Part shown: positions 8,607 to 49,144 of the stretch, in pieces
How positions within the stretch are numbered: the stretch's first letter is position 1
Layout: each line of letters begins with the position of its first letter
Assembly (NCBI GenBank): GCA_004565275.1
Contig: SDOX01000114.1
Span: forward strand, 33,970-83,264
From: Nannochloropsis salina CCMP1776
Lineage: Eukaryota; Sar; Eustigmatophyceae; Eustigmatales; Monodopsidaceae
Reading direction: 5' to 3'
DNA: 49,295 bases
The notes under the pieces: model-generated
The model's database searches: none
What the model was told of the DNA's origin: nothing
Seen by the model: only the letters and a program-made list of their open reading frames with translations
Program-made: the position numbers and the translations under genes

Positions 8607-9905
8607 ATGTTTCGCAGTCCTTTGCGGAAACTTGGCTATCAAACACATTGTCACAATCCTGGCATTCGAGGGATACTTATCATTTTATTTATAGCATGGA
8701 TTTTATGCGCATTTCTTTTCTTACATTCCTTCCAAAGCGTGCATTACAAAATGCTTTTCTCAAAGGAAATTCTTCCCTCCATATCCATGGCTGTGGAAAC
8801 GGCACAACCAAGCAGCAGCCTTGACACGTATTTGCACCTGCGGTCGCGCGCCAGACAAGCATTAAACATCACTGACGAATCAATAAGCATAAAAACGGAT
8901 AAGGCGGATGTACCGAAACGTATAAGAATCGCACAGTACAGCCATGTATACGGTGCTGACCCTCTCTGGAACGACGACAGCGGTGCCTGGGAGTCCTGTG
9001 GACAGCCGTGTGAAGCAATTGGTGGATATGGAGACGCCTCGTCAGCAGCTGCCGCCGACGTGGTCGTGCTGGACATACAAACCTTCAGATCTGTACCGTG
9101 GGCCCGACCGGCGAAACAGATATGGGTGGGAACATACTTTGAGTCCCCTGACCATTACCCAAACCGGAAAAACCCTCAAATCATGTCACAATTCAATGTA
9201 ACGATGGGTTTCCGCCCCGACGACGACCTTCCAGTCTTCAACATGGTGTACGATACCATGAAGGGCTTCGCTGGCATTGCTAATCTTACACTTCCGACCT
9301 GGGAAGCAAAGCAAGCCCGTCCTGAATTGATGTCCGTCTGGATCTCCAACTGCAACACGGACCGCACGCACCGGAAAGATATTCTTAAGCAGCTCGCATC
9401 CTCCAAGATCTCGTATGCCTCCTACGGCCGCTGCTGGAACACGCATTCCTCCAAGCAAGGTGTGACGGCATTGACGGATGCAGATTGGCGGCGCTACGGT
9501 TCTCAAAATCTTGGCGCGGAACTTGTTGCTGTTGCCACTCAATACCTCTTTTTCTTTGCGGCAGAGAATTCGGATTATCCATACTACATCACCGAAAAGG
9601 TCTTCCATGGACTTGCCGCAGGATCAGTACCCGTCTACGTAGGGGACGCAGAGAATCTAAAGAAGATTGCCCCACCTCATTCGATTATTTATGCGAACGA
9701 TTTTGAATCTGTGGGAGCCTTGGCTTCTCATCTGCACGCGGTGGCGCAAAATCCCGAGCTTTACGAGCAATATTTGAAATGGCGACAAGATTCTGACGCG
9801 CTCAACAAACTTGAAGCGATGATGGCTCTTCCCGCATGGGCATCCACGCACGGACGCGAATATGCATGTGCATTGTGTGAGTACATGCACGCCATTGGCA
9901 GCTGA
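8607..9905 (+). CDS. GT10 family alpha-1,3-fucosyltransferase, intronless
   Basis: 432 residues in one exon. Residues about 22-42 form a single membrane helix after a 20-residue basic tail: a type II Golgi protein. Residues about 311-365 hold the GT10 signature: FFAAENSDYPYYITEKVFHG matches the alpha-1,3-FucT motif (F-x-x-x-EN-S-x-x-x-x-YITEK), followed by GSVPVYVGDAENLKKIAPP and a Phe/Ile-rich strand ending ANDF. The C-terminus has a CALC motif (residues 423-426, ACALCEY), like the CxxC found near the end of plant-type core FucTs. The reaction is transfer of fucose from GDP-fucose to GlcNAc in alpha-1,3 linkage, probably on N-glycans; the exact acceptor is inferred. Unlike its neighbours it lacks introns. 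The ATG at 8607 is the first in frame that gives the anchor. Confidence 0.9.
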   Translation: MFRSPLRKLGYQTHCHNPGIRGILIILFIAWILCAFLFLHSFQSVHYKMLFSKEILPSISMAVETAQPSSSLDTYLHLRSRARQALNITDESISIKTDKADVPKRIRIAQYSHVYGADPLWNDDSGAWESCGQPCEAIGGYGDASSAAAADVVVLDIQTFRSVPWARPAKQIWVGTYFESPDHYPNRKNPQIMSQFNVTMGFRPDDDLPVFNMVYDTMKGFAGIANLTLPTWEAKQARPELMSVWISNCNTDRTHRKDILKQLASSKISYASYGRCWNTHSSKQGVTALTDADWRRYGSQNLGAELVAVATQYLFFFAAENSDYPYYITEKVFHGLAAGSVPVYVGDAENLKKIAPPHSIIYANDFESVGALASHLHAVAQNPELYEQYLKWRQDSDALNKLEAMMALPAWASTHGREYACALCEYMHAIGS

Positions 9906-13822: not shown

Positions 13823-16800
13823 ATGCAGCAGCATAGGTGGGCACTGAGGCTGACATTTAGCATAGTAATAGTTATTGTGGCAGTACTGGCTGTGCATTTT
13901 GCCAAGCGGCGCCACGCCAGTACTGATGTTGTCAAACCGGAGTCCAAGGTAATGTGGTCGGAGTTTCGCATTGGAAGGACCCTACATTAAAAAGTCCACT
14001 ATTGCCATCAATCAGCAGGACGCATCCACAGCATGGGATCAGCATCAAAATTCTTGGACTAACCTCTCTTTTGACGTTACGAGGGACAAGGCGGGTAACG
14101 GAACTGACTTAAGACCAGGCGAAGAAGCAGATGTGTCGTCCCCGACTACGGACGAGCACACTCCACCTGCAATTCAACATTCCGTTCCCATCATGTCGAA
14201 TGGTACAATAACGACAATAGGCAGTGGACTCATTGCGCCCTTCATCGAGTCCCGACTAGGTAACATGGTACCAGAATGCACGCCAAAAACGGGAGTAGAG
14301 TTGCAGCAGATGGTAGAAGGTAAGTTTTAAAATATCGACATTGATTTCGCTATTTCCTCACCGCAGAAAATAAACTTTGTTCCGCTCAGGTACCCTCTGT
14401 TCTGTGGTAACTTTGCTCCCCGGAGTGACCTACGTCCTTTCGGAATTCATTCGTGTCAGCCGGCAAATTACTGTCATTGGCCGACCGTTAGACATGCCCA
14501 CAGTTGATGCCCACAGGGCTTTTCGAGCCTTTACTGTTGAGGCAGGAGGATTTATAGACATTCGATTTGTCCGTCTTTTTCGTGGAAAGCCTATTCGACT
14601 TCGTCCGTCACTCCTCGAAATCCGAGGAGGCGTATTCTACATTAGAAGAGGAGGGCGAGCAGTCTTGACCAGCTGTTTCCTCACGGTCAACCCTAGATTG
14701 ATAACGGAATTTTTTATCAGCGAGCAGTTGGACACCTTGCGACTTAGAGGAGGATACATACTTCAAGAAGAAGGAACTCTAGTAATGACAGACGTGCATA
14801 TCTACGTTACACGACCCGGTGTGCTGTTTCGGGAAGTCTATACGGTGGGCGGGCAGGTTCTACTATTGGCTGGCAATGCAGTGTTTACAGGATGCACTTT
14901 TTTAAGCAATCTGCTCTTCGTCAATGTTGTTGGTGTAGGGGACGCCATAGGGGTTTTTGGGGGAACCGCAATATTCACCGGATGTTCGTTCACTTTGAAT
15001 TGTGCCTTTCTTTCGGTAAGCATTTTCGTTGACGACCAGTTCTGTTGTAGAAGACTTAAAATGGCTGTTGAAATATTATCTAATACATGAAATACTACTT
15101 CTGTCTTTTAACTGCCCTCGCTTTCAGAGTCAAGGAACCGGGATGCTCCTTTTCATGGGAGGCGGCGTTTCCGTTTTCACAGGGTGTCAAGCGATACTCA
15201 ACATTGGAGCCCGTACCTTTTTTGGAGCTGGTGGGACTTTTTTTAGTGGTGGTGGCGTCTCAATCTGGACGGGCGTGTCAGTACATGCAGATATTGCATT
15301 GCTATTCGGTGCCGCAGTCGGTGTCATCCTGGGTCAGGGGGCGGGCATATTTATCAAAACAGGAGTCTCCCAAACGGGATATATAGCGGTGAATGCCGTG
15401 GCATGCTTAGGTTTGACACTTTACGTTGGCTCGGGCGTCGTAGTCCAGTCGGAGACGCTGTGGGTACGTGTGGCGGCTGTTACTGCTTTTTACGGGGGCG
15501 GGGGCTCCGTCTACATTCATGCTGGCACAGGTACGTAACATCTTATGATATAAAGAGTTATTCAGCTGGAGTGAAAAAAACTAGAGTATAATTAGGGTGC
15601 CATTTAACTGTTTAAGCTCTCATGGCATGGCCGGTGACCGAAAGACTAGGTCAGGCATTGGTGACTCTCCTTTCGTGCACGCAAATGCCTTATATGACCT
15701 TTTCCACACAAATGGCAGTTTCTATCATCAACACTGCGGGGCTTATCATCAACATCATACTATTCGCCTCTATCGCCGGTGGTCATTTTTTTTTACATGC
15801 GGGCTGGTTGACTACCGTGAACATGTATTTCTATAAGTTTGAGTGTGTTGGCGTTGTGTACGGCCAAGGTACCGAAATCCTTGTTCTAGCGGGAGGAGCT
15901 GCCCTGATCAACACAGGCTATCAAGGTGGTGTTTATTTTGTTTTTCACGGGAATCGTCGCCTTGCACAGTTCTGGATTGCCGGCCACGACGTAGTATTGC
16001 GGAGCAACAAAACTTTCAGCGGTGCTATTGCAACCAGGGACAAAGTTACTTACATCCTTAAAGACAGGACAAGGATGCGAGTTCAGATGCAGAACGTCGC
16101 TTTCGAAGACTACGATCAGACGGAAGTAGAAAGGGTGTTCGGGTTTAGAAACCATCGTCGTCACCTTACATCCCTGCAGGAGAAATTAGAAGCATTTGCC
16201 GTATTCGATCCTCCTACGCAGGAAGACGAGGAAGGCCTGAGTTTGACGCCAACTGTCAAGGCAACACCCACTCCTTCCACATTATCTCTCATGGCTGAGG
16301 CTCCAGTGCTTGAGCAGGCCTACCAGAGAGTCGTTCCCTTCACCCATCTTTACATACCCACCATACCTACCGACGTGAGGACCGACCATATCTTCCTAGC
16401 GGGGGGCTTGGACGACTGTTCTCTTTGCAATGTGAAGCCCGGACATACTAGCGAAAACGTGGACGGTCCCGGCGCTGCCACTTGCGCCCTAGCTGACCGT
16501 TGTGAGAACCGGGCACCCTCTCGTAGAGATGCGTTAGACGAGAATAGCAGTAGCAGCAGCAGCAGCAAAGGCAGCAACAATAATAGCAACAAACGTGATG
16601 GTAGCAGTAGCAAAGATGACTGGTGGAACCCGCCACTAGATTTAGGAATGCCTAACTCCTCTGTTGCTGTGCTGGATATACAGGTTAAGTACACGCCCAC
16701 GTATCCTTTCACTGCCTACTTAGAGCCTGATAGCGTTGAGGTCGGGATTAAAAAGGCCTTTTTGACCCTGGGGGTTACCCCACGCGCCCATGTGCGAGTC

Positions 16801-17649
16801 CAGCCAGACTTAGTAAATCCATTAAATTTCGATGATGAGGAGTATGTGAAGGCGGTAAGAAGAGATACCGAGCAGAACGGAGGCCTCAATGCAGCAGAGG
16901 TAGGAACCACGCTGAGGGACGAAGAAGGAGAGTTGCTTGAGGAATTTTTGCGAGCAGGGGACAGGAAGATGGTCTACGAAGAGTGTTTGAGCAAGTCCTT
17001 TCGGGTATATGTGGTCAGCGACTGGCAGAACGTGACCGACACGCACGTTGACAAGCTGAAGGGAGCAGCAGGAAGCGGGGCTTTGACCCTGGCATTGCAG
17101 GACACACAGCCAGCAGACGACGGTGTAAAAATCTGCGAAGCATTCCTGAAGACAGCCCGTTCGATTTTTATTCCGGGTCTTAAAGCCTCGTCGTCCAAGA
17201 AAGAGGCTCTAGAAAAAGGAAAATCTTCGATAGCCGACGTGTTGGGCGCAGGGAAGGCTACCTCGATGGCAGCGGCAGCACTGACGGACAGCGTTACAGG
17301 TGCGCGTGTTGACGAGGTATGGATGGGCAAGACCTATGCTCTGGAAATAGAGAATTTTGCACCTGCGACGCCTTTGGTTGTCAAGCTGGTTCCTCGTGAC
17401 GGAGATGGGCCCCTGACATTGGACGCTTTCTTCCTGCGGGACGGAGAGGGGGCCCTTACTGCCTGGATGTGGACAGTGGACGAAACTGTTGAACCTGGGG
17501 CATATTTTCTGCAAGTCACGAGCGAGGAGACAAGCAGTAGATCTTCGACAATCTTTGAGAAGCTGAGCACACTTGTGGGTTTAAAGTCGGCAACCCCAAC
17601 TACTGCTTCAAACTTTGCCTATACCCAGGCGTTTGACGTGCGCGAATGA
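13823..17649 (+). CDS. Large type II membrane protein with beta-helix-like repeats, 5 exons
   Basis: Exons: 13823-13948, 14016-14319, 14390-15015, 15128-15530, 15617-17649; phases agree, 1163 residues. Residues about 8-26 (ALRLTFSIVIVIVAVLAV) form a membrane anchor after a short basic tail. Residues about 145-600 are a string of roughly 38-42-residue, Gly/Val/Phe-rich units with a recurring turn such as AVFTGCTF, AIFTGCSF, VSVFTGCQ and VSIWTGVS. This is the pattern of a right-handed parallel beta-helix and recalls bacterial Pmp/adhesin repeats. Residues about 690-720 contain a Ser/Asn/Lys-rich linker. The last about 110 residues (WMWTVDETVEPGAYFLQV ... NFAYTQAFDV) resemble the Kre9/KNH-type Ig-like domain of fungal and oomycete wall proteins; this is weak, recalled similarity. 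The likely site is Golgi lumen or cell surface. No enzyme motif was seen. The start is the first ATG giving the anchor. Confidence 0.75.
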
Positions 17650-28212: not shown

Positions 28213-28373
28213 CTCCTACCAGGGTTGCCTCTTTCTCATATCGCTTACATAATGCGTCCACATGCTGCCAACATTTTCTTCCGTCATTTTCACCCGTCCT
28301 TTTCGATTTTTTACTCCCGTTATGCATAGATTCGTATAGCTTAGCGTAGTGTTACTCTGTGCACGGGTCTGAC

Positions 28374-29931
28374 ATGGCACCGCCTGGCCGGAGAAGGCTA
28401 GTCATCTTCCTCCGCCTCATGATGGCGGCATTAGTATTATTAGCCACCTGTCAAGCTTTTTTGGGTTTTTCATATTCTTCGCAGCGCATTGCTACGCCAC
28501 ATTCTACTGCATTGCGGATGCATCAGCTACAGCCGCCATTGAACACGCCGCTGCAGTTTGGTTGCGGATCTAGACGGGTGTTGCTGCTTTTTGCAGGGGA
28601 GAAGGGAGGCGAGGAGGACGCCCTAATAGGAGTAAGGAGGCAACGGGGGTGGTGGAAGAAGTCAGAGAAAGAGCGTTAGCAAGCAGTGGAAAGAGAGGAT
28701 ATGTGCCTGGACTAGAGGAGGGAATGTATTTGATTGATGAGAGAAAGGAACAAGGGTGCAAGCTGCTTCTGATGCGATGAGGCGGTGTCAGCGTCGAGAA
28801 CGGCAAACCATATAAAAACCACAAGGATTTTTCTGGAAAGAAATCGTCGATAATAACTGTCTCACGCCTCATTTGTCGCTCCTTTTTATCTGGCCCACCC
28901 CTCCTTGTCATATCCTTCTTCGCAGGACATTGCGACTATGGAGGAGTTGGAGGCAGCCATCCAGACGTCCGGAACGACCAAACCGCTCGTGCTTCGGTTC
29001 CACGCTTCCTGGTGCTCGGTAGGAAAAGAGGAAGGAGGGAGGACGGGGGGAGTGAAGACAGTAGGACCGCAAAGAAGGTTGGGCCTAGGACCTGCCCGTA
29101 TCTCGAGGGGGGGTAAGGGCAGGAAAGGAAAGAGGATGGCGAGGGGAGGAGAGCCATAGGCATTGGTGGAAGATATGTATTACTGGTATGCTGTATTTTG
29201 TCGATGATATAGAATCAAGTGTATGGGTACTCGGTCCCGGCTCCTCGCTCTCCTCACATTCTCACATCATTCTTTGTGACCCTAATTCCCTCCTCCCTCC
29301 CTTTCTCCCATATTTTCTTCTGGGATAGGCCTGCAAGCGCTTTGCCCCCACGTGGCAACAAACTGTAAACGCTTACGAAGAATACTTCGACTTTGTCGAT
29401 GTGGATGTGACGGTAACGGATGAGAGGGAGGAAGGGGAAGTGAATAGGTGCTCTGTCTGGCGACAGGAACGTCACAAATGACAGGGACTCTATTGCTTCA
29501 GAATTATTCTCTCCTTCATTCTTTGTTCGCCATCTAATCCCTGCTCTTTCCTCCATAATGGTAGGGGAAGAGGGACATCATCGTGGCCATGGGTCTGACG
29601 GTGCTTCCTCACTCTCATTTCTACGTCGGAGGGAGCAAGGTGGAGGACTTTGGTGTCTCGATCAAAAAACTTAATGTGCGTGACATGTTTCTCTTGTCCG
29701 TGTCTTCGACATTCCGTCCCCCTTTCCCTCTTTCGCTCGTCGAGTCCCTCATCCTTGCTTCCCTTCCTTCCTGCTGCTTTCATCTCTTGTTTGTTTTGTG
29801 ACCTCTTCACCACCCATCCTTCTCGTCATCCGTAATGTCGTTTGAGACCTCTCTTATTGCCTCCGTCGTTTTTAATTTTGGTCCGCCAGGGGCTTCTGGA
29901 ACGGCTGGATAAGTATAAGAAAATGCGATGA
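28374..29931 (+). CDS. Plastid-type thioredoxin-like protein, copy 1, 5 exons
   Basis: Exons: 28374-28631, 28926-29018, 29329-29412, 29565-29675, 29890-29931; all in phase 0, 195 residues. Residues 9-28 are a signal peptide ending TCQA|F, the heterokont plastid-import junction, followed by a Ser/Thr-rich transit-like stretch. The thioredoxin fold starts at about residue 90 (MEELEAAIQTSG). The active site is WCSAC (Cys116, Cys119) instead of WCGPC; the fold continues with FDFVDVDVT and the cis-Pro site TVLPHSHFYVGG (Pro160). Both cysteines are present, so disulfide exchange is plausible; similar atypical thioredoxins (for example CDSP32- or lilium-type families) are plastid redox carriers. The ATG at 28374 is preferred because the signal peptide follows directly. 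It is convergent with the secreted-protein gene and present again at 36803. Confidence 0.88.
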
Positions 29932-32352
29932 CGGAAAACGGGAAAATGTGACGAAGATATGGATTCAGAGCGACCAAATTGTGTAGATAATACACTTGAG
30001 GAATGTTTAAGAGCTCAGGACTGGGGCAGAAAGATATGAAAAGGAAGCGGGGAAGGAGGCCTCGGGGTGACTTGTATGTCTGAACTGAAGGTCGGCCTGT
30101 GGGAGAATTAGAGCGCGCAAGGATGTTTGAGAATCATCACAAAATGACATTTCAGTGGCTCGTTATCCAAGCAATTTTGAGGAATCTCAGGGAAGGATCC
30201 GTTTGGTGAAAGGATAAATTTCCTGTGGATCATGTAGCCCGATAAAAACTCAGAAAAACCAATGGTGCCCAGTTTCTTTCCCTCTCTTGATCCCGCCATT
30301 TTCCATCCGTCATTCTCTGGAAAGGACAGAGGAAGGTTAGTTTCAGGGTTGATAAAAGTGGTGATAGAGAAGGAGGAGGAGGAGGAAGTTGTTAACAGGA
30401 CGAGAAACTGGCCATTCTTCCTGCGTCGTTCGCTGTGCCTCCTATTCCCAAGTCCAACTGTTTTGATCATCTAGACGTCGCCTCCTCTCTGCTCTTCCAC
30501 ACGGGTGTAATAGAGTGGGCGGTTCATTTCCATACGGGTGGATCGTAGCGGAAGCTTCATTTGAGGAAATGGAAAAGGAGCTGTAGGAGGACGAGTCTAA
30601 AGGATAACGTTAACAGGGTTTACGCTACTGTTAGACTTAGGATACGCTTACGGAAGAGTCTAAATGATATCCTATGGCCATTGTATTTCTCTCGGACTTG
30701 GACTTGGTAAAGACCTCTCGATAGATCTACTTAAGACTGGCCTTTCATTCGCGCCAGATGCTTTTGCCTGCTGTTCAAACACTCGAATAGTGCGTGCCTC
30801 AAGATTACACGAAGGGAAGGCCTGCACTTGTGCGAAAATCAGACGCGTCACTTTGTTAGTGTGATGTGCAGCTACAGCTCAAGGGCATAGCTCGAATGAC
30901 TCTTTCTTGCTTCATTGCCTGTGCATTTTTATACCTATAGTCTACAATCACTATAGTCCCTCTGCTACAGGCACCTCCTAGCACTTAGGCTTCCAGGTCC
31001 CCCTCCTCACTGCATACAATACTCAGTCTGCAAAGATGTGTCGAGTTCTTCGCTCATGATGATGAGACCCGACACCTGTTTCTATACGCAGGCATAGAAT
31101 CGTTAAGAATTTGGACACTTCTCAGGACAAAATAGAGGCAACAAAGGTATCCGTCATAGCTGGTTAGCAAGCCTGTTACCGACCTAATTTTTGCGGTACA
31201 AGGGACACGTACAATACAGGATTGAGCGAAATGACCCTTGAAGGCATAAGACGAACGCCAATATTTGGACTCTGTCGGAGCTTAGTCTGTCTAAGAGTCG
31301 GCTGACTCTGTGTCAGCTCCCAAAGGACACCAAGTGGGGCAAGAGAGAGGAATAGCGGTGTAAAAAGACAGATAAGAAAGTATTACACCTCTGGAAACAT
31401 GGGAAAGGGAGGCACTAGGATGCGTGCCCTGAAGTAGAATGGGCTACCTCAAAGGTATCAAGCCGCCCTCTTTACACCTTACTATATTTCCTCTTCCTTT
31501 ATTTCATTCGATCCTTCCTCCCTTTATTCGTTAAATTGTCTTGCCATCCTACAGCCCTTGCCAGACAACGATGAATACTTAAAAAGGCATACGTATATGA
31601 AATGATTGGAAGTTTTTGATCTCTTCCCTACCATCTTGTATGCTGTCTTTCTACATCTCTTGTGCCATTGACAAGAAGAAAAATACGCATGCGGACTTTT
31701 CAAGTGTGGTCATTACGAATAAGAGTACAGCTTATTCCATCCCCTTGACCCTTACGAATTTGCTCTCTTAGATGTGTCGAAAAGAAATGACAACAAAATT
31801 AGAAATAGTCATGGTAAGCTTTGAGCGGAGAATCTAGTATGCTACACTTGGACGCTTAATTCAAGGTGGTTCTTATGCATGAAATAGCTAGTCTCCCAGA
31901 TAACTTGATTTAGATGCTTGAGGATTCCTCTTACTTCCCAGGACATTATAGTATTAATTCAGGACACCCAAGCTGAAGAAAAGCCCCTCATCAGCCATCA
32001 AAGGATATATTGAGACGGTATTTATGGCATGACATATCAAGGGCCCCGAGAATTAACGTTGCATACATAATTGACAAGCCCAAGTACGACACCATACCAG
32101 TTTAAGTATAAGCAGGAGCACGATGACAGGAAATACGACAAAGACGTAGTATATATACGCCTCCACATAGACCTGCATCATAGACGATACACGATAGAAA
32201 GGTACAGGGGTCAACAATTTAAGTGATCGTGACGTGAAATTATAGGACTTCCAGACGAAAAGATGAAGTCTCCTGTGGTGTACTTAACGCTACTGGCAGA
32301 GACTTAATGACGTTGGCGTGTACTTCGATGCCGATCACTCGATAGAATAAAT
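29932..32352. other. Intergenic region inside duplicated block, copy 1
   Basis: 2.4 kb between the convergent thioredoxin and secreted-protein genes. It matches 38358-40800 almost base for base. A GGA-repeat (30368-30388) is present. The largest open frame (30108-30470, minus, 120 codons) is conserved only because the whole DNA is, and gives no recognisable protein. Nothing else was identified, which makes its near-identity between copies notable. Confidence 0.5.
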
Positions 32353-34176
32353 TTAGACGGCCTCTGCAGCGTCTTCTGGTTCTTCCCCTTCTGGTGCTTC
32401 TCCACACTGCTCAGAGAGTTGAATAGTACTCCCCTCAGGGGTGAGCGTGTAAAGGACCTGTCTAGCACCAATTATCACACCTGACTCCTCGTATTGCTCC
32501 TTTGTGGTACATTTACAGCTCCCCCCCTGCGGATCGAAAGTAGCCATAAAGTAGCCGCCAGCATCGACACAGGCTTGCGCGCAATAAACGATATCTGGAA
32601 AATCTAGAGAAACAATCGTCCCCTCGCTGCATGTAGTAAAGGCGCCGCAATCATTAAATGAATATATAGAGGAAATACCATCATCATCAAAGTAAGCAGT
32701 CACTTCTTCGCATTCCACGATATTCTCTGGCGAGGTAGAAGGAGAAGGCGTCGTGGGTGTTGCACTCGGGCTTGCCGTGGGCATGGCCGTAGGTGCGGAC
32801 GATGGAGCGCTTGTCGTTGGAGCGACTGAGCATTGCTCAGAGAGTTGAATAGACCTCTCCTCAGAAGCGACCGTGTAAAGTTCCTGTCCAGCAGCTACAA
32901 TCACACCTGACTCCTCGTATTGCTCCTTTGTGGTACATTTACAGCTCCCATCCTCCTGATTGAAAGTAGCCATGAAGAAGCCGCCAGTAGTGGTACAATA
33001 TACCGCACATCCTAAGGGACCTGGAAAAGGTGGAGAAACAATCGACCCCTCACTGCATGCAGTAAAAGAGCCGCATTCATTAAATACATATGTTGTATCA
33101 CCAATTGGAAACAATTTTTCTTCGCATTCGATATCTGGCGAAGGCGTCGTGGGTGCTGCACTTGGGCTTGCCGTGGGCATGTCCGTAGGCGCGGACGATG
33201 GAGCGCTTGTCGTAGGGGCTGCTGTGGGTTGCGCAGGGGTAGGAGCACTTGTAGGCACAGCCGTTTCGTCCACCACCGCTTGATACGTGTCAAAGTTCCC
33301 ATCCAGTATCAAAGTACAATCGCCACTGCAGCAGAAACATTGGCTTGTCACCGTATTCCAACTGAAGAAGAAAGGCGCCGACACGTCGCCATTCAGGGAG
33401 CAATACGAGAAGCACTCGGAAGGCGTCGCAATTGAAGCCGAAGCCTGCAATGTCCGTGTGCCATCTGGCACCTTGCGGATCATGTTCCGCTCTGCGTCCA
33501 GTCGGATATCGTCGACCAATCGACGATCCTCGAAAGGGGCCAGACGACTCGGTACGCCGCGCTGACCGGGGGCATACAGGGAGAAAGGTGCGGCGGGATT
33601 CACTGTCGGAGCAGGGGTCGGCGCACATGTCGCATGACCCTTCAATGATTTTTCCCCGAGACCCGCTTTCTTGGTGCGGGAGTATCGCACGTGCACGTTA
33701 GCAGGCGCGGCCAAGGACTCGGTGCAATAGGGAGTCATATCCGTCGCATTCACAAGGTAAGCAAGAGCTGTGACGGCCAGCACATCTGGAGCGCATTCGT
33801 CGACGATCACCTTGGCCTGGAAGGTACGCTTGAAGGATTTGGTCTTGTAAAAGGCCATATCGGTCCAGTAGATGGCCGTTGATCCGTCGCTGTTCTGCAC
33901 AATCGTCGGGTCTGCGACGGCTTTGGAGGACGGACGAGTGCGCGTCTGCAGGACGGCTAAGCCGTTGGGGAGCTCCAACTTGAATGCAGCGTCACGTGCA
34001 GGACCCTGACCGCGCATCGTGACGAGGATCCTCGCGCGACCGCGACCGGCCAAGACCCCACGCCTGTTGTTGGGCCGCACCTTGGCAGTGAGCTGAAAGC
34101 GTGGGCATTGTTGACCGGAGAAGCTGGGAAGCCATGCGAGGCTAAGGAAGGCGAGCAATAGACAAGCGCGATGCAT
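32353..34176 (-). CDS. Secreted Cys-rich repeat protein with Pro/Thr/Ser linkers, copy 1
   Basis: 607 residues in one exon. Residues 1-21 form a signal peptide. Residues 22-185 are a Cys-poor beta-rich domain of unknown family. Cys-rich domain 1 spans residues about 245-303 (SECFSYCSLNG ... CFCCSGDC). Then come linker 304-347 (SAPSSAPTDMPTASPSAAPT), domain 2 (349-449), linker 450-486, domain 3 (487-591) and an acidic tail. Domains 2 and 3 share a frame: ECEE...N(E/D)CG-x-FT-x-CSEG...C...C...(F/Y)FMATF...GSCKCTTKEQYEESGVI...IQLSEQC. This recalls WSC/PAN-like carbohydrate-binding modules, but I cannot assign a Pfam family. An extracellular or wall location is inferred. No GPI signal or second membrane helix is seen. 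Its paralogue is at 40801-42669; the N-terminal 300 residues are nearly identical, the C-terminal domains are not. Confidence 0.88.
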   Translation of the reverse strand: MHRACLLLAFLSLAWLPSFSGQQCPRFQLTAKVRPNNRRGVLAGRGRARILVTMRGQGPARDAAFKLELPNGLAVLQTRTRPSSKAVADPTIVQNSDGSTAIYWTDMAFYKTKSFKRTFQAKVIVDECAPDVLAVTALAYLVNATDMTPYCTESLAAPANVHVRYSRTKKAGLGEKSLKGHATCAPTPAPTVNPAAPFSLYAPGQRGVPSRLAPFEDRRLVDDIRLDAERNMIRKVPDGTRTLQASASIATPSECFSYCSLNGDVSAPFFFSWNTVTSQCFCCSGDCTLILDGNFDTYQAVVDETAVPTSAPTPAQPTAAPTTSAPSSAPTDMPTASPSAAPTTPSPDIECEEKLFPIGDTTYVFNECGSFTACSEGSIVSPPFPGPLGCAVYCTTTGGFFMATFNQEDGSCKCTTKEQYEESGVIVAAGQELYTVASEERSIQLSEQCSVAPTTSAPSSAPTAMPTASPSATPTTPSPSTSPENIVECEEVTAYFDDDGISSIYSFNDCGAFTTCSEGTIVSLDFPDIVYCAQACVDAGGYFMATFDPQGGSCKCTTKEQYEESGVIIGARQVLYTLTPEGSTIQLSEQCGEAPEGEEPEDAAEAV

Positions 34177-34570
34177 TTTAGTTGCTCAAGTGAGGTTGAA
34201 ATGTGGAGTTGAACTTGTGAAAGGGAAGCGATAAGCAGTGTATTAGGAATAATGAGATACGAAATCGGAAGTAGAATGACAATGCAAAGAATGATATAGC
34301 TAGTCGCTACCGCATTTGAAGGTCTAGTGCTTGACATGAGGGGCTAGATTGCTCTCGGTACAATTAAAAAATAATTCTCTCGACGAATATCTCTCGACTT
34401 CATTGTTCTGCTAGATTCGCCTGGTGCATTGATCGAAATAGTAGAGATAGTAGATGGAAAGCAACAACTTATGTAGCCTTTGATGTTATCACGATGCAAA
34501 GCTTATCGCCCACTTCAAGACTTATTTCTTTCAAGTGTTGCTATGTGCGGAGTGGAGCAACCGTAAGTAT
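34177..34570 (-). promoter_or_regulatory. Presumed promoter of secreted-protein gene, copy 1
   Basis: 394 bases upstream of the start codon that belong to the duplicated block; the equivalent in copy 2 is 42670-43053. The two match apart from scattered substitutions and short indels, so both genes probably kept their promoter core. No TATA box or other element could be assigned with confidence. Confidence 0.35.
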
Positions 34571-34611
34571 GACGCGAATATAAAGATGACAGGATGATGC
34601 TAAGGGAGCAT

Positions 34612-34699
34612 GAGATCGGCGATAGGAGGTCAAGAGATCGGCGATAGGAGGTTCAGAGATCGGCGATAGGAGGTCATGAGATCGGCGATAGGAGGTTCA
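34612..34699. repeat. Tandem repeat, 4 x 22 bp
   Basis: Four 22-base units, each GAGATCGGCGATAGGAGG plus a 4-base end that alternates TCAA, TTCA, TCAT, TTCA. The alternation suggests growth by a 44-base dimer. It starts 42 bases after the right edge of duplication copy 1 and is not present after copy 2. Confidence 0.95.
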
Positions 34700-34702
34700 G
34701 AG

Positions 34703-36641
34703 AGCCGTCGTACAGTGTTGCATACCTATATCCTTTATGGATCCAACAGTCTGTATCACGATGTGCTGATCGCTACTGTATCATGTCATGGTTTGCGTCC
34801 ACCTAATCATTTTATAGGTTATATTGTTATACGACAACAGGACTGGCGTCGATCAGTGTCTTTGGTTGTCGATCGTATTGGTTATCTTAGTGCGAGATTC
34901 TTGGGTGAATCGTTGGTCTACATTCTCAGGGAGAAAAGTGGTCGTACTGAAGAATCAATTGGGTATTGGGTTACCCGTGGAGCATTAGTTTGTTTATTCG
35001 CATCTGGTCATGGGCCCTAATTGACCAAACCTTTGAACTGGATAAATAGCTGATTATTCAAGACACTGATCGACGGTCTATTTTGGTGCAATTGGATTTG
35101 CAGAAATAGAGATCTGTACGTATCTGAATCTCTCTGGTGCAATTGGATTTGCAGAGATTCAGGACTGCTTTAATTGGCAATTGGATTTGCTAGATTAAAG
35201 GCAGGAAATAATTGTATCTGGAGGCCTTAGATACGGCTGGCCAGGACTGTAATCGTAAAGTCATTGGAGACAAAGACGATTATAGGATGGCAATCTTCAG
35301 TGGAAGATTGGAAGACTGGGACACCTGGAAGAGCGAGGTTGAAAGCTTTATCGGGGCTAAGGACCCAGAGATGGCAGACGTCATTGTTGGATTAACCAAG
35401 TCACCGATTTCTGGGGACGAGGTAAAATCTTACGATGAAAGGAATGCCAAAGGTTACTTCACCCTCAAGAAGTACCTTAAAGGAGCGGCTGCAAGCTTAA
35501 TCGAGAAACTCCGTCCAAACAAGGATGGGGCGGGTGCTTGCAAAGCACTAACAGACAAGTATGAATTGAAAGGAGAGACGCAAAAGGCGTTACTAATGTC
35601 CGAGTTCAGCCAACTTAATTTCGATGAGAATGGCGATCCGGGAGAAACTTTCGAAGCAGCTGAGGAGCTAGCTAGAAAGATTAAGCATGGATTTGATATG
35701 GAAATCGATGAATCCATACTACTTACTAACTTGATTAATAAAATTCCATCGGCATATGGAATGGTGAAAGTGAGTCTGGAAACACAAGATTTGATGTCTT
35801 ATTCAAATCTGAAGTCAAAAATGATAAATCATTTTGTGACAAATATAGCTAATAAGGTCAAGGATGACTAATGTCTAGCTATCACTTTCAATGAATACTG
35901 CAATTGGTGCGGTAAATACGGGCATAAGGAAATGAAATGCCTCGTAAAGAAAAATGGTGGAGGCCGAGCGCGACCTCCTGACAACGGAAACAAATTGGGC
36001 CGGTATGAGCGTGTACCTGGCAACCCCTGCAATGGCCCTGGCAAAGGCGGGCGCAATAATTTCGGACGGGGAAAAGCAGGCCGTGGAGGCCGAAGTGGAC
36101 GTGGACGTGGCAAAGGATTGCACGGTGGCAATGGTTGCCGATACTGTGGAAGTGCAGATCACTGGGGAAATGAATGCCCCAAGAATAAAACGGAGCACTC
36201 CTATACATGCTTGCTAGCCACCAAGAATATATCTGGAGCCCTGGAACACACACAAATGAATTCTGCAATGGTGGATAGCGGAGCTACATCCCATATGAAG
36301 AGAGACACTACGGGATTGACTAATGTCAGACGACATTATGGTCACGTATATGTGGCAAATGGGAAGAAACTAGAAGTACGTTACATCGGAGACTGGCTCA
36401 TGGAAGTGAAGCACAGTGATTGCAAAATAAAGGGTGTCATGTTTAAGGACGTTATTGTGGTACCAAACCTAAGTCGAGATCTATTATTTATGGCTAGAAT
36501 TGATAAAGCCGGTGGAGATATAATAATCCGTAAAGGAAAGGGCGTGATTAGGAAAGGTGATACATATTTGTATGATAAGGAAAGTAGATAACATGTACTT
36601 GTTAGACTACTACGGCGAATCGTGTGAGGAAGCTAATGTTG
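34703..36641 (+). mobile_element. Ty1/copia-type LTR retrotransposon fossil, 5' part
   Basis: A copia-family fossil lying between the two duplication copies. The parts seen are a leader with short repeats, a Gag region (about 35287-35871; EFSQLNFDENGDPGETF and LTNLINKIPSAYG are typical copia Gag features), CCHC zinc knuckles (CRYCGSADHWGNEC is the clearest, about 36137-36178) and an aspartic-protease region with the VDSGATSHM motif near 36275. Integrase, reverse transcriptase, RNase H and a 3' LTR are absent from this window. The element is broken, with about two breaks. The left limit is approximate because no LTR border was identified; the right limit is the edge of duplication copy 2. Age cannot be measured without a second LTR, but the coding parts still read well, suggesting it is not very old. 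Confidence 0.8.
35084..35194. repeat. Three spaced copies of a 15-base motif
   Basis: GCAATTGGATTTGC occurs at about 35088, 35139 and 35177, twice within a longer TGGTGCAATTGGATTTGCAGA unit. It lies in the leader of the copia fossil and could be part of its LTR or untranslated leader. Confidence 0.8.
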
Positions 36642-36802
36642 CTCCTACCAGGGTTGCCTCTTTCTCATATCGCTTACATAATGCGTCCACATGCTGCCAA
36701 CATTTTCTTCCATCATTTTCACCCGTCCTTTTCGATTTTTTACTCCCGTTATGCATAGATTCGTATAGCTTAGCGTAGTGTTACTCTGTGCACGGGTCTG
36801 AC

Positions 36803-38357
36803 ATGGCACCGCCTGGCCGGAGAAGGCTAGTCATCTTCCTCCGCCTCATGATGGCGGCATTAGTATTATTAGCCACCTGTCAAGCTTTTTTGGGTTTTTC
36901 ATATTCTTCGCAGCGCATTGCTACGCCACATTCTACTGCATTGCGGATGCATCAGCTACAGCCGCCATTGAACACGCCGCTGCAGTTTGGTTGCGGATCT
37001 AGACGGGTGTTGCTGCTTTTTGCAGGGGAGAAGGGAGGCGAGGAGGACGCCCTAATAGGAGTAAGGAGGCAACGGGGGTGGTGGAAGAAGTCAGAGAAAG
37101 AGCGTTAGCAAGCAGTGGAAAGAGAGGATATGTGCCTGGACTAGAGGAGGGAATGTATTTGATTGATGAAAGAAAGGAACAAGGGTGCAAGCTGCTTCTG
37201 ATGCGATGAGGTGTCAGCGTCGAGAACGGCAAACCATATAAAAACCACAAGGATTTTTTTGGAGAGAAATCGTCGATAATAACTGTCTCACGCCTCATTT
37301 GTCGCTCCTTTTTATCTGGCCCACCCCTCCTTGTCATATCCTTCTTCGCAGAACATTGCGACTATGGAGGAGTTGGAGGCAGCCATCCAGACGTCCGGAA
37401 CGACCAAACCGCTCGTGCTTCGGTTCCACGCTTCCTGGTGCTCGGTAGGAAAAGAGGAAGGAGGGAGGACGGGGGGAGTGAAGACAGTAGGACCGCAAAG
37501 AAGGTTGGGCCTAGGACCTGCCCGTATCTCGAGGGGGGGTAAGGGCAGGAAAGGAAAGAGGATGGCGAGAAGAGGAGAGCCATAGGCATTGGTGGAAGAT
37601 ATGTATTACTGGTATGCTGTATTTTGTCGATGATATAGAATCAAGTGTATGGGTACTCGGTCCCCGCTCCTCGCTCTCCTCACATTCTCACCTCATTCTT
37701 TGTGACCCTAATTCCCTCCTCCCTCCCTTTCTCCCATATTTTCTTCTGGGATAGGCCTGCAAGCGCTTTGCCCCCACGTGGCAACAAACTGTAAACGCTT
37801 ACGAAGAATACTTCGACTTTGTCGATGTGGATGTGACGGTAACGGATGAGAGGGAGGAAGGGGAAGTGAATAGGTGCTCTGTCTGGCGACAGGAACGTCA
37901 CAAATGACAGGGACTCTATTGCTTCAGAATTATTCTCTCCTTCATTCTTTGTTCGCCATCTAATCCCTGCTCTTTCCTCCATAATGGTAGGGGAAGAGGG
38001 ACATCATCGTGGCCATGGGTCTGACGGTGCTTCCTCACTCTCATTTCTACGTCGGAGGGAGCAAGGTGGAGGACTTTGGTGTCTCGATCAAAAAACTTAA
38101 TGTGCGTGACATGTTTCTCTTGCCCGTGTCTTCGACATTCCGTCCCCCTTTCCCTCTTTCGCTCGTCGAGTCCCTCATCCTTGCTTCCCTTCCTTCCTGC
38201 TGCTTTCATCTCTTGTTTGTTTTGTGACCTCTTCACCACCCATCCTTCTCGTCATCCGTAATGTCGTTTGAGACCTCTCTTATTGCCTCCGTCGTTTTTA
38301 ATTTTGGTCCGCCAGGGGCTTCTGGAACGGCTGGATAAGTATAAGAAAATGCGATGA
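36803..38357 (+). CDS. Plastid-type thioredoxin-like protein, copy 2, 5 exons
   Basis: Exons: 36803-37060, 37352-37444, 37755-37838, 37991-38101, 38316-38357; 195 residues. The protein is identical to copy 1 except Asp87 becomes Asn (GAC to AAC at the first codon of exon 2). Signal peptide with CQA|F, WCSAC active site and the cis-Pro loop are all intact. Because the duplicated block starts only 161 bases before the ATG, sequence further upstream is copia DNA rather than the native flank of copy 1, so expression may differ. Confidence 0.87.
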
Positions 38358-40800
38358 CGGAAAACGGGAAAATGTGACGAAGATATGGATTCAGAGCGAC
38401 CAAATTGTGTAGATAATACACTTGAGGAATGTTTAAGAGCTCAGGACTGGGGCAGAAAGATATGAAAAGGAAGCGGGGAAGGAGGCCTCGGGGTGACTTG
38501 TATGTCTGAACTGAAGGTCGGCCTGTGGGAGAATTAGAGCGCGCAAGGATGTTTGAGAATCATCACAAAATGACATTTCAGTGGCTCGTTATCCAAGCAA
38601 TTTTGAGGAATCTCAGGGAAGGATCCGTTTGGTGAAAGGATAAATTTCCTGTGGATCATGTAGCCCGATAAAAACTCAGAAAAACCAATGGTGCCCAGTT
38701 TCTTTCCCTCTCTTGATCCCGCCATTTTCCATCCGTCATTCTCTGGAAAGGACAGAGGAAGGTTAGTTTCAGGGTTGATAAAAGTGGTGATAGAGAAGGA
38801 GGAGGAGGAGGAAGTTGTTAACAGGACGAGAAACTGGCCATTCTTCCTGCGTCGTTCGCTGTGCCTCCTATTCCCAAGTCCAACTGTTTTGATCATCTAG
38901 ACGTCGCCTCCTCTCTGCTCTTCCACACGGGTGTAATAGAGTGGGCGGTTCATTTCCATACGGGTGGATCGTAGCGGAAGCTTCATTTGAGGAAATGGAA
39001 AAGGAGCTGTAGGAGGACGAGTCTAAAGGATAACGTTAACAGGGTTTACGCTACTGTTAGACTTAGGATACGCTTACGGAAGAGTCTAAATGATATCCTA
39101 TGGCCATTGTATTTCTCTCGGACTTGGACTTGGTAAAGACCTCTCGATAGATCTACTTAAGACTGGCCTTTCATTCGCGCCAGATGCTTTTGCCTGCTGT
39201 TCAAACACTCGAATAGTGCGTGCCTCAAGATTACACGAAGGGAAGGCCTGCACTTGTGCGAAAATCAGACGCGTCACTTTGTTAGTGTGATGTGCAGCTA
39301 CAGCTCAAGGGCATAGCTCGAATGACTCTTTCTTGCTTCATTGCCTGTGCATTTTTATACCTATAGTCTACAATCACTATAGTCCCTCTGCTACAGGCAC
39401 CTCCTAGCACTTAGGCTTCCAGGTCCCCCTCCTCACTGCATACAATACTCAGTCTGCAAAGATGTGTCGAGTTCTTCGCTCATGATGATGAGACCCGACA
39501 CCTGTTTCTATACGCAGGCATAGAATCGTTAAGAATTTGGACACTTCTCAGGACAAAATAGAGGCAACAAAGGTATCCGTCATAGCTGGTTAGCAAGCCT
39601 GTTACCGACCTAATTTTTGCGGTACAAGGGACACGTACAATACAGGATTGAGCGAAATGACCCTTGAAGGCATAAGACGAACGCCAATATTTGGACTCTG
39701 TCGGAGCTTAGTCTGTCTAAGAGTCGGCTGACTCTGTGTCAGCTCCCAAAGGACACCAAGTGGGGCAAGAGAGAGGAATAGCGGTGTAAAAAGACAGATA
39801 AGAAAGTATTACACCTCTGGAAACATGGGAAAGGGAGGCACTAGGATGCGTGCCCTGAAGTAGAATGGGCTACCTCAAAGGTATCAAGCCGCCCTCTTTA
39901 CACCTTACTATATTTCCTCTTCCTTTATTTCATTCGATCCTTCCTCCCTTTATTCGTTAAATTGTCTTGCCATCCTACAGCCCTTGCCAGACAACGATGA
40001 ATACTTAAAAAGGCATACGTATATGAAATGATTGGAAGTTTTTGATCTCTTCCCTACCATCTTGTATGCTGTCTTTCTACATCTCTTGTGCCATTGACAA
40101 GAAGAAAAATACGCATGCGGACTTTTCAAGTGTGGTCATTACGAATAAGAGTACAGCTTATTTCATCCCCTTGACCCTCACAAAATTGCTCGCTTAGATG
40201 GGTCGAAAAGAAATGACAACAAAATTAGAAATAGTCATGGTAAGCTTTGAGCGGAGAATCTAGTATGCTACACTTGGACGCTTAATTCAAGGTGGTTCTT
40301 ATGCATGAAATAGCTAGTCTCCCAGATAACTTGATTTAGATGCTTGAGGATTCCTCTTACTTCCCAGGACATTATAGTATTAATTCAGGACACCCAAGCT
40401 GAAGAAAAGCCCCTCATCAGCCATCAAAGGATATATTGAGACGGTATTTATGGCATGACATATCAAGGGCCCCGAGAATTAACGTTGCATACATAATTGA
40501 CAAGCCCAAGTACGACACCATACCAGTTTATGTATAAGCAGGAGCACGATGACAGGAAATACGACAAAGACGTAGTATATATACGCCTCCACATAGACCT
40601 GCATCATAGACGATACACGATAGAAAGGTACAGGGGTCAACAATTTAAGTGATCGTGACGTGAGATTATGAGACTTCCAGACGAAAAGATGAAGTCTCCT
40701 GTGGTGTACTTAACGCCACTGGCAGAGACTTAATGACGTATGATGGTTGTTGACAAACTTTTGGCGTGTACTTCGATGCCGATCACTCGATAGAATAAAT
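38358..40800. other. Intergenic region inside duplicated block, copy 2
   Basis: Matches 29932-32352. A small cluster of differences occurs at about 40160-40202 (copy 1 31734-31776), and an about 22-base extra segment lies at 40740-40761, in the presumed 3' UTR of the secreted-protein gene. No gene seen. Confidence 0.5.
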
Positions 40801-42669
40801 TTAATCGGCCTCTGCAGCGTCTTCTGGTTCTTCCCATTCTGGTGCTTCTCCACACTGCTCAGAGACTTGAATAGTACTCCCCTCAGGAGTGAGCGTGAAA
40901 AGGACCTGTCTAGCACCAATCAATACACCTGACTCCTCGTATTCCTCTTTTGTGGTACATTTACAGCTCCCATCCTCCGGATTGAAAGTAGCCATGAAGT
41001 AGCCGCCAGCATCGACACAGGCTTGCGCGCAAAGTCTGGGACTTGTAGCAGCAGGTACAATCGTCCCCTCACTGCATGTAGTATAGCGCCCGCAGAAATG
41101 TATTTCTAATCCTAATCCATCCCCATCGGGATCTAAGGTTTCAAGTCTGCATTCGTGATTTCTCTGCTGCGGAACACTTGGAGAGGGCGTTGTTACTGCG
41201 GGTTGCGGAGTAGGAGCTACTGAGCACTGCTCAGAGAGTTGAATAGTACTCCCCTCAGGAGTGAGCGTGTAAAGTTCCTGTCCAGCAGCTACAATCACAC
41301 CTGACTCCTCGTATTCCTCCTTTGTGATACATCTACAGCTCCCATCCTCCTGCTTGAAAGTAGCCATGAAGAAGTCGCCAATACTCTTACAAGCTCTCGG
41401 GCAATCAAGGGGATCTAAGAGGCCAAAACCAAGATCAAACCCCTCGCTGCATGTAGTAAAGGCGCCGCATTCATTAAATATTAGACCAGAATTATCAAAC
41501 ACTTCTTCGCATTCCACGATATTCTCTGGCGAGGTAGAAGGAGAAGGCGTCGTAGGTGCTGCACTCGGGCTTGCCGTTGGCATGGCCGTAGGTGTGGACG
41601 ATGGAGCGCTTGTCATAGGGGCTGCTGTGGGTTGCGCAGGGGTAGGAGCACTCGTTGGGCTTGCCGTGGGCATGTCCGTAGGTGCGGACGATGGAGCGCT
41701 TGTCGTAGGGGCTGCTGTGGGTTGCGCAGGGGTAGGAGCACTTGTAGGCACAGCCGTTTCGTCCACCACCGCTTGATACGTGTCAAAGTTTCCATCCAGT
41801 ATCAAAGTACAATCGCCAGTGCAGCAGAAACATTGGCTTGTCACCGTATTCCAACTGAAGAAGAAAGGCGCCGACACGTCGCCATTCAGGGAGCAATACG
41901 AGAAGCACTCGGAAGGCGTCGCAATTGAAGCCGAAGCCTGCAATGTCCGTGTGCCATCTGGCACCTTGCGGATCATGTCCTGCTCTGCGTTCAGTCGGAT
42001 ATCGTCGACCAATCGACGATCCTCGAAAGGGGCCAGACGACTCGGTACGCCGCGCTGACCGGGGGCATACAGGGAGAAAGGTGCGGCGGGATTCACTGTC
42101 GGAGCAGGGGTCGGCGCACATGTCGCATGACCCTTCAATGATTTTTCCCCGAGACCCGCTTTCTTGGTGCGGGAGTATCGCACGTGCGCGTTAGCAGGCG
42201 CGGCCAAGGACTCGGTGCAATAGGGAGTCATATCCGTCGCATTCACAAGGTAAGCAAGAGCTGTGACGGCCAGCACATCTGGAGCGCATTCGTCGACGAT
42301 TACCTTGGCCTGGAAGGTACGCTTGAAGGATTTGGTCTTGTAAAAGGCCATATCGGTCCAGTAGATGGCCGTTGATCCGTCGCTGTTCTGCACAATCGTC
42401 GGGTCTGCGACGGCTTTGGAGGACGGACGAGTGCGCGTCTGCAGGACGGCTAAGCCGTTGGGGAGCTCCAACTTGAATGCAGCGTCACGTGCAGGACCCT
42501 GACCGCGCATCGTGACGAGGATCCTCGCGCGACCGCGACCGGCCAAGACCCCACGCCTGTTGTTGGGCCGCACCTTGGCAGTGAGCTGAAAGCGTGGGCA
42601 TTGTTGACCGGAGAAGCTGGGAAGCCATGCGAGGCTAAGGAAGGCGAGCAATAGACAAGCGCGATGCAT
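40801..42669 (-). CDS. Secreted Cys-rich repeat protein with Pro/Thr/Ser linkers, copy 2
   Basis: 622 residues in one exon. Residues 1-300 match copy 1 with only a handful of changes (Val161Ala, and LNAEQDM for LDAERNM). The first linker (304-382) is longer because the SAPTPAQPTAAP...MPTASP unit is duplicated. Domain 2 (386-481) and domain 3 (507-605) keep the conserved frame (CSEG, FFMATF, EESGV, SEQC), but the segments between ECEE and the following Cys, and between CSEG and the next Cys pair, are replaced: copy 2 has VFDNSGLIF and FDLGFGLLDPLDCPRACKS in domain 2 where copy 1 has KLFPIGDTTYVF and SIVSPPFPGPLGCAVYC. The linker phrase TSPENIVECEE precedes domain 2 here but domain 3 in copy 1, which suggests module shuffling. 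Role is unknown; cell wall or recognition function is inference. Confidence 0.87.
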   Translation of the reverse strand: MHRACLLLAFLSLAWLPSFSGQQCPRFQLTAKVRPNNRRGVLAGRGRARILVTMRGQGPARDAAFKLELPNGLAVLQTRTRPSSKAVADPTIVQNSDGSTAIYWTDMAFYKTKSFKRTFQAKVIVDECAPDVLAVTALAYLVNATDMTPYCTESLAAPANAHVRYSRTKKAGLGEKSLKGHATCAPTPAPTVNPAAPFSLYAPGQRGVPSRLAPFEDRRLVDDIRLNAEQDMIRKVPDGTRTLQASASIATPSECFSYCSLNGDVSAPFFFSWNTVTSQCFCCTGDCTLILDGNFDTYQAVVDETAVPTSAPTPAQPTAAPTTSAPSSAPTDMPTASPTSAPTPAQPTAAPMTSAPSSTPTAMPTASPSAAPTTPSPSTSPENIVECEEVFDNSGLIFNECGAFTTCSEGFDLGFGLLDPLDCPRACKSIGDFFMATFKQEDGSCRCITKEEYEESGVIVAAGQELYTLTPEGSTIQLSEQCSVAPTPQPAVTTPSPSVPQQRNHECRLETLDPDGDGLGLEIHFCGRYTTCSEGTIVPAATSPRLCAQACVDAGGYFMATFNPEDGSCKCTTKEEYEESGVLIGARQVLFTLTPEGSTIQVSEQCGEAPEWEEPEDAAEAD

Positions 42670-43277
42670 TTTAGTTGCTCAAGTGAGGTTGAAATGTGGA
42701 GTTGAACTTGTGAAAGGGAAGCGATAAGCAGTGTATTTGGAATAATGAGATACGAAATCGGAAGTAGAATAACAATGCAAAGAATGATATAGCTAGTCGC
42801 TACCGCATTTGAAGGTCTAGTGCTTGACATGAGGGGCTAGATTGCTCTCGGTACAATTATAAATATATATATCTCGACGAATATTCATTGTTCTGCTAGA
42901 TTCTCGCCTGGTGCATTGATCGAAATAGTAGAGATAGTAGATGGAAAGCAACAACTTATGTAGCTTTTGATGTTATCACGTTGCAAAGCTTATAGCCCAC
43001 TTCAAGACTTATTTCAAGTGTTGCTATGTGCGGAGTGGAGCAACCATAAGTATTTAAATGTGGCATTCCGTGTGATACATGAATTGTTTTCTCATGTGAA
43101 TATTCACGGCTTGATCCTGAATTCTCCCGAGCGATAGTCAGTCATAGGAGCGTCCGACCAGATCTCTAGGAAGGTCCACATAAGCTTGAGGGTGACCTTG
43201 CAATCCCAACAGACGACAGATTATGATAAATAAATAATCTTCAAAAAGGTAATATGCCATTGGATTTTACAATCGAT

Positions 43278-47442: not shown

Positions 47443-49144
<1,702 letters not shown>

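Follow-up and report, generated by a model that had tools for sequence, protein, structure and literature searches.

What could hold two coding patches far apart when the non-coding DNA around them is nearly identical? The question is raised by a pair of secreted-protein genes in the eustigmatophyte alga Nannochloropsis salina CCMP1776. The window, i.e., the whole stretch of DNA analyzed, comprises 49,295 bases of contig SDOX01000114.1 (positions 33,970 to 83,264; 49% GC, zero N) and carries a 6.4 kb unit twice, in direct orientation. In the secreted-protein gene of each copy, about 0.76 kb coding for domains 2 and 3 together with their linkers is an island of divergence. The reading that we prefer, with a probability of roughly 0.5, is that this is an old island built by recombination among domain cassettes, and that it has been retained while the DNA around it became, or stayed, nearly identical.

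The Duplicated Unit and Its Divergence Island

The two copies were delimited by self-BLAST and aligned end to end by global alignment. Their main parts are as follows.

28213-34570, no strand assigned: block A, first copy of the 6.4 kb unit
36642-43053, no strand assigned: block B, second copy of the unit
28857-29720, plus strand: thioredoxin-like gene with introns, copy A (limits approximate, by eye)
37283-38146, plus strand: thioredoxin-like gene, copy B (alignment coordinates)
32404-33160, minus strand: divergence island, copy A, domains 2 and 3 with linkers
40852-41654, minus strand: divergence island, copy B, with 91 bp of extra linker (alignment coordinates)

Substitutions between the blocks number 4/641 in the left part, 6/864 in the thioredoxin-like gene, 11/2632 in intergenic DNA and 8/1016 in codons 1–342 of the secreted-protein gene. 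That is, these four parts diverge by 0.42–0.79%. The 5′ flank of the secreted-protein gene has 10/381 (2.6%), and its last codons have 3/51. Within the island, 159 of 694 aligned sites differ (23%), and there are six indel events in addition. When the left part, thioredoxin-like gene and intergenic DNA are pooled, the contrast is 21/4137 versus 159/694 (Fisher P ~4e-116). The first-pass annotation had pointed to a coding patch that diverges beyond its non-coding surroundings, and that observation is confirmed; the drop in identity is not spread evenly along the block. As for the extra linker of copy B, self-BLAST pairs 41567-41652 with 41657-41742 at 95% identity, so the Thr/Ser/Pro linker ahead of domain 2 in gene 2 is tandemly duplicated, in a unit of ~90 bp, across 41567-41742.

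The near-identity noted outside the patch is likewise borne out, at 0.4–0.8% typically, but it is uneven, with the 2.6% flank, clustered changes and one long stretch without any change. The intergenic segment 29698-31736 (2039 bp) matches its block B copy with no substitution and no gap. A gap that long among the 21 substitutions of 28213-32352 arose in 0/10000 simulations, and the over-dispersion of those substitutions was matched in 5/10000, i.e., they are clumped. The divergence of the flanks is thus low but departs from a clock, which points to either conversion or mixed ancestry. The difference-free stretch itself suggests, from its sequence, a recent homogenization of the flanks, one reading among several that are possible.

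Several side observations belong here. The 2039 bp segment has no long open reading frame (ORF) and no Rfam match, and an Rfam scan of the window found no family. Two clusters of A/B substitutions stand inside near-identical DNA as if each were one event, of exchange or of change: six at 31737-31775 and four at 34370-34377. One exon of the thioredoxin-like gene matches PF00085 at E 0.00057 and 20.3 bits, under the curated cut-off of 23.5.

Domains and Variable Loops of the Secreted Proteins

Both secreted-protein genes were defined by open frame and translation.

32353-34176, minus strand: gene 1, secreted protein of 607 residues
33253-33453, minus strand: gene 1 domain 1, divergent from domains 2 and 3 and their possible relative (translation; very weak profile match of 2.1 bits)
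32830-33132, minus strand: gene 1 domain 2, with loops V1 33082-33123 and V2 33010-33045
32404-32718, minus strand: gene 1 domain 3, with V1 32656-32709 and V2 32584-32619
40801-42669, minus strand: gene 2, the paired secreted protein of 622 residues, with the architecture of gene 1
41224-41517, minus strand: gene 2 domain 2, with V1 41476-41508 and V2 41404-41439
40852-41157, minus strand: gene 2 domain 3, with V1 41101-41148 and V2 41032-41064

Gene 1 encodes a signal peptide-like start (by eye), an N-terminal domain, domain 1, Thr/Ser/Pro-rich linkers, domains 2 and 3 and an acidic tail. That the proteins are secreted was judged by eye, from what looks like a signal peptide and from the lack of a clear membrane anchor. 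Domain 1 is conserved between the two copies, and a profile search of the window found no additional copy of the domain. Domains 2 and 3 share a frame of motifs: ECxx, CG..T.CSEG, C...C, FMATF, GSC.C, EESGV and SEQC. Loop V1 runs from the first cysteine to the CG motif, and loop V2 from CSEG to the next cysteine. Loop lengths differ among the domains, and every cysteine is retained.

Much of the earlier description holds. Both frames are open, at 607 and 622 residues from Met, and the frame motifs recur in all four copies of domains 2 and 3. The loop coordinates given in the first-pass annotation are right if counted from Met; ORF residue numbers run 3 higher. A linker phrase does precede different domains in the two genes: in copy 1, TSPENI (ORF residue 484) leads into domain 3, and in copy 2 (residue 382) it leads into domain 2. 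The loops are strongly replaced between the copies, but "entirely different" overstates some of the comparisons, as V2 of domains 2 and 3 of copy 1 are clearly related.

Synonymous Divergence and the Case for Selection

If amino-acid selection after a recent duplication had made the island, synonymous sites should tell. Codons 4–340 have a synonymous divergence (dS) of 0.012 (3/254 sites) and a nonsynonymous divergence (dN) of 0.007. In the positionally paired C-terminal halves (C-halves) of the domains, dS is 0.069 and 0.139 (2.5/37.8 and 5.0/39.3 sites). For synonymous change at the N-terminus versus the C-halves (3/254 versus ~7.5/77), Fisher P is 0.0006 or 0.002, depending on rounding. In the loops of the positional pairs, counting gives dN about equal to dS (0.94/0.94 and 1.01/1.24). 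For the other domain pairs, the loop dN/dS ratio, omega, is 2.81, 2.54, 1.36 and 1.30, so that the six pairs range over 0.82–2.81, with two above 2.5. A maximum likelihood (ML) codon model, a weak test here owing to recombination and few sites, gave on three trees a loop omega of 1.54–1.71, with twice the log-likelihood difference at 0.99–1.48; in no case is omega significantly above 1.

These numbers allow a judgment on a simple alternative, in which point mutations that followed a recent duplication were positively selected. In its favor, no other amino-acid stretches have changed nearly as much as the loops, and two of the counted omega values exceed 2.5. Yet the synonymous divergence of the patch is several times the N-terminal value, loop lengths differ and the ML loop omega does not significantly exceed 1. 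As synonymous sites have diverged more as well, selection that acts on point mutations is by itself insufficient; we rejected it in its simple form, on the synonymous rise and the ML omega, and regard it as hardly credible. The combined synonymous and loop divergence implies that old or imported DNA is included. Read from the sequence, the synonymous and amino-acid divergence of the island is old relative to that of the flanks.

The first-pass annotation had named a loop dN/dS near or below 1 as the first half of what would speak against its proposal, and near 1 is what the loops show. Its two suggested causes fare differently. Diversifying selection lacks a significant omega, whereas recombination, or cassette exchange, is favored by the synonymous rise, by the mosaic look of the domains and by the codon composition of the loops. 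The cell-surface variation system that it also put forward is a hypothesis that goes beyond these data.

Apparent Mosaic Structure of the Domains

The C-halves of the domains are most alike by position, while the linkers and N-half frames pair domain 3 of gene 1 with domain 2 of gene 2. Exact tracts run in several directions. Gene 1 domain 3 and gene 2 domain 2 share tracts of 54 bp (in the linker) and 30 bp, the two domains 3 share 36 bp, and gene 1 domain 2 shares 50 bp with gene 2 domain 2 and another 50 bp with gene 1 domain 3. At the 26 sites where the four domains split two against two, a change-point test places a switch of pattern at the end of V2, with 7/20000 shuffles as strong; this P is optimistic, since the test was picked after the pattern had been seen, once runs tests had come out non-significant. 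On this sequence evidence, each of the four domains appears as a mosaic whose pieces are the linker, N-half, loop and C-half.

If the better-matching domain of copy 2 is chosen separately for every 45-column window along copy 1, 638/756 sites match. The loops are thus not derivable from a reshuffling of these four domains alone. Differential loss from a three-domain ancestor was also considered as the whole explanation; it was rejected, as 118/756 sites differ even with the better partner.

Codon Composition of the Loops

The loops also differ from the frame in the G/C content of third codon positions (GC3). Codons ending in G or C make up 17/106 (16%) in the loops, 52% of 300 codons in the frame and 65% of 307 at the N-terminus. 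Stratified by amino acid, the loop value stands at z -6.0 against the frame, whose four copies are homologous and do not supply independent codons, and at z -8.2 against the N-terminus. Each of the eight loops has only 1–3 such codons among its 11–18. A GC3 as low was reached in 1/104 circular shifts of the loop mask and in 0/20000 random segment sets from codons 4–340. The values are graded: 0.55 in frame columns with identical codons, 0.45 in frame columns with variable amino acids and 0.16 in the loops. Possible explanations are that the loops lie outside conversion tracts that raise GC, that their origin is A/T-biased or that they are hypermutated.

The gradient bears on an account free of selection for diversity, in which gene conversion homogenized the flanks while the loops, tolerant of sequence change, grew too heterologous to convert. 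Low GC3 could then be mutational equilibrium outside conversion tracts (0.55 to 0.45 to 0.16), and loop dN close to dS in the positional pairs fits as well. Against such relaxed constraint, the frames are open and all cysteines kept. Intergenic DNA, expected to be freer still, is near-identical and 45% GC, and the account does not say how the loops first diverged under conversion without selection. We think it unlikely.

A Copia Element and the Origin of the Two Copies

Between the copies lies one further element.

34570-36641, plus strand: truncated Copia-type element with putative 5′ long terminal repeat (LTR), gag, zinc knuckle and Pol_BBD region

It matches PF14223 (gag) at E 1.5e-8 and PF22936 (Pol_BBD) at E 7.8e-12; the zf-CCHC match is below the cut-off. 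The putative 5′ LTR, seen by eye, begins with TG at 34570, and the element is cut off at 36641, where block B starts. The putative LTR contains four tandem 22 bp units (34612-34699), and GCAATTGGATTTGC occurs three times in 35088-35190.

Block A stops where the element starts, and block B runs on at the equivalent place without it. Because the element is found at the end of copy A but not in copy B, each copy may derive from a different haplotype. The simplest map, drawn from the sequence, may be an exchange between an element-bearing and an element-free haplotype, with A and B being former alleles. A larger duplication followed by an insertion and a deletion is a possible alternative.

That map invites the view that the copies are ancient alleles in tandem, i.e., haplotypes of one locus under balancing selection that were joined by unequal exchange, one with and one without the Copia element. 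The island would be an old allelic polymorphism, and the 0.5% difference of the flanks would be the normal diversity among alleles. Our preferred explanation overlaps with this view; the two differ in where the divergence arose. The exact end of block A at the element start favors it, as LTR elements are not known to depart without trace; so does the narrow peak over a low background, which is what balancing selection with recombination predicts. Weaker points are that an older, larger duplication gives the same map, at the cost of one more event, if the element then inserted into one copy and a deletion ran from it into the other; that the LTR was recognized by eye only, a second LTR and a target duplication not being visible; and that the identical 2039 bp tract requires later conversion or uneven allelic diversity. 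We regard ancient alleles as possible, though doubtful.

The junction also raises the question of assembly, for a retroelement is a typical place for a misjoin, and two haplotypes or a misjoined repeat could have been set in tandem. Such an artefact is very unlikely in a window without N and with a base-exact junction. Even if there were a misjoin, both versions of the island would be real alleles.

Fold of the Domains

A model of gene 2 domain 2, built from a four-row alignment, has a mean predicted local distance difference test score (pLDDT) of 64, with residues 1–26, including V1, below 50. V2 precedes the main helix, and V1 lies in the low-confidence part. Foldseek returned 124 matches at E ≤10, the best being the SML-2 lectin at E 0.05. 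Among the best 50 of these 124, 45 are proteins that we take to carry PAN, apple or WSC domains, and 5 are not such proteins. We count among the 45 presumed carriers 25 AMA1, 5 SML-2 lectin, 4 copper oxidase, 3 factor XI, 3 Kremen and 2 plasminogen, together with one each of MIC4, NK1 and an Eimeria PAN module. The N-terminal region with domain 1 modeled poorly (mean pLDDT 38.9).

Sequence searches gave no relatives. Pfam, run with both proteins and the four domains at E 10, had no PAN match and no other relative. PDB sequences gave none either (best E 0.29 with gene 1 and 1.1 with the domain profile), nor did viral contigs, searched with the domain alignment and gene 1, or prokaryote genome contigs, searched with the domain alignment. 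The collections of prokaryotes, viruses and plasmids were not built for eukaryotes, so that their empty searches say little on algal relatives. The model thus offers the PAN/apple fold, in which a helix packs against a beta sheet and disulfide bonds tie the two together, as a weak lead, not as membership.

Proposed Explanation

We propose that the island was divergent already before the copies were joined, or before the last homogenization of their flanks. It would have been assembled by unequal exchange or gene conversion, with cassettes drawn from this pair and from alleles or further members of the family that we have not seen. It may persist as differing loops are useful and the frame must keep the fold. 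With less support, the domains might be PAN/apple-like binding modules on Thr/Ser/Pro-rich stalks, with the loops as contact surface, and the proteins might act in extracellular recognition or adhesion.

A number of results weigh against this proposal. Loop omega never rises significantly above 1, and the ML frame omega of 0.92–0.95 gives no support to strong constraint on the frame; the alignment of the loops is uncertain, so that dN and dS there are both inflated. Runs tests on the 26 two-against-two sites were non-significant (1628, 993 and 1341 of 20000 shuffles as extreme), and sites of the frame alone favor positional over crosswise pairing, 13 versus 2. The search for loop donors within the window returned only self matches and matches of 10–14 bases at E ≥0.06. 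None of the 124 Foldseek matches reached E ≤0.001. Low GC3 is also found elsewhere: in 12-codon windows of the fucosyltransferase ORF described below (34/433) and of the 15616-17649 ORF (21/666), and in 13-codon windows of two further ORFs (15/227 and 19/226) plus the ends of both secreted-protein genes. Low 12-codon windows number 0/284 in the family 17 glycosyltransferase-like ORF and 1/325 in codons 4–340 of gene 1.

A bolder version would make this a locus for extracellular recognition, for mating, self-recognition or the binding of viruses or bacteria. PAN-like lectin domains would swap short loop cassettes, a loop-specific process would leave codons ending in A or T, and the frame would be homogenized. 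As a whole, this is distinctly unlikely.

Comparison with Known Systems

Among paralogs under gene conversion, low divergence of the flanks with a local peak where differences are kept is described for exon 5 of the red/green opsins (PMC3924837); RHCE/RHD is named in a reference title within the same paper, and mosaic islands are described for the GOT1 paralogs of Tigriopus (PMC3728101). The gene pair also has a local divergence peak over near-identical paralog flanks. It differs from the opsin and RHCE–RHD peaks in its extent: not a few sites but the full length of two domains is involved, and there are indels and exchanged loops.

In the HNWD genes of Podospora anserina (het-d, het-e), the repeat frame is homogenized, both inside a gene and from gene to gene, and diversification falls on a few surface positions (PMC1805685, PMC2873952). 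Here, too, the repeated domains have a common frame. In contrast to the intracellular NACHT and WD40 proteins of that family, the algal ones are predicted to be secreted, may be PAN-like and have two variable domains per gene. As to positively selected positions, the frame is shared but loop omega is not significantly above 1.

Stramenopiles have secreted proteins with PAN/apple domains; one of them, CBEL of oomycetes, has repeated PAN-like domains, a Pro/Thr-rich hinge and lectin activity, binding Gal/GalNAc motifs (PMC3532174). The putative signal peptide, repeated domains that may be PAN-like and a Pro/Thr-rich hinge are points of likeness; the algal proteins differ by having no Pfam match to PAN or to a cellulose-binding module, another cysteine spacing (by eye) and hypervariable loops.

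Templated diversifying gene conversion, as in chicken immunoglobulin and the trypanosome variant surface glycoprotein, replaces short tracts within a constant frame (PMC3924843). The loops resemble such tracts, but the window holds no array of loop donors, and nothing points to somatic or programmed switching. The gene pair would thus appear to work like these systems in outline, membership in none being established. None of the literature titles surveyed describes this pair.

Other Features of the Window

A family 10 fucosyltransferase is encoded at 8571-9905 (PF00852, E 1.7e-32), and near it, at 6545-7432, is an ORF resembling family 17 glycosyltransferases (PF04724, E 2e-5, under the cut-off). 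Long ORFs with Gly-rich repeated motifs occupy 14374-17649; by eye they are like beta-helix surface proteins, and a Pfam scan of two pieces gave no match at E 0.1. The N-termini encoded at 2637-3311 (minus strand) and 28350-28676 (plus strand) resemble the signal plus plastid-targeting peptides of secondary plastids (motif Ala-X-Ala-Phe). GGGA/CCCT microsatellites are found at 1060-1159, 2154-2244 and 48722-48773, the first two mutually inverted. Introns and low-complexity tracts are present as well; with the Copia-type element and these N-termini, they give the window a resemblance to the DNA of an ochrophyte alga, perhaps a eustigmatophyte.

Meaning for the Alga

In eustigmatophytes, according to PMC8570151, sexual reproduction is unobserved, meiosis genes are present and the life cycle is haploid-dominant. 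Should the island prove to be a genuine and old polymorphism, this 0.8 kb stretch would be a candidate locus for cell–cell or cell–virus recognition in the alga. The contrast in codon composition between loop and frame would be a simple, general signature to seek in other hypervariable proteins.

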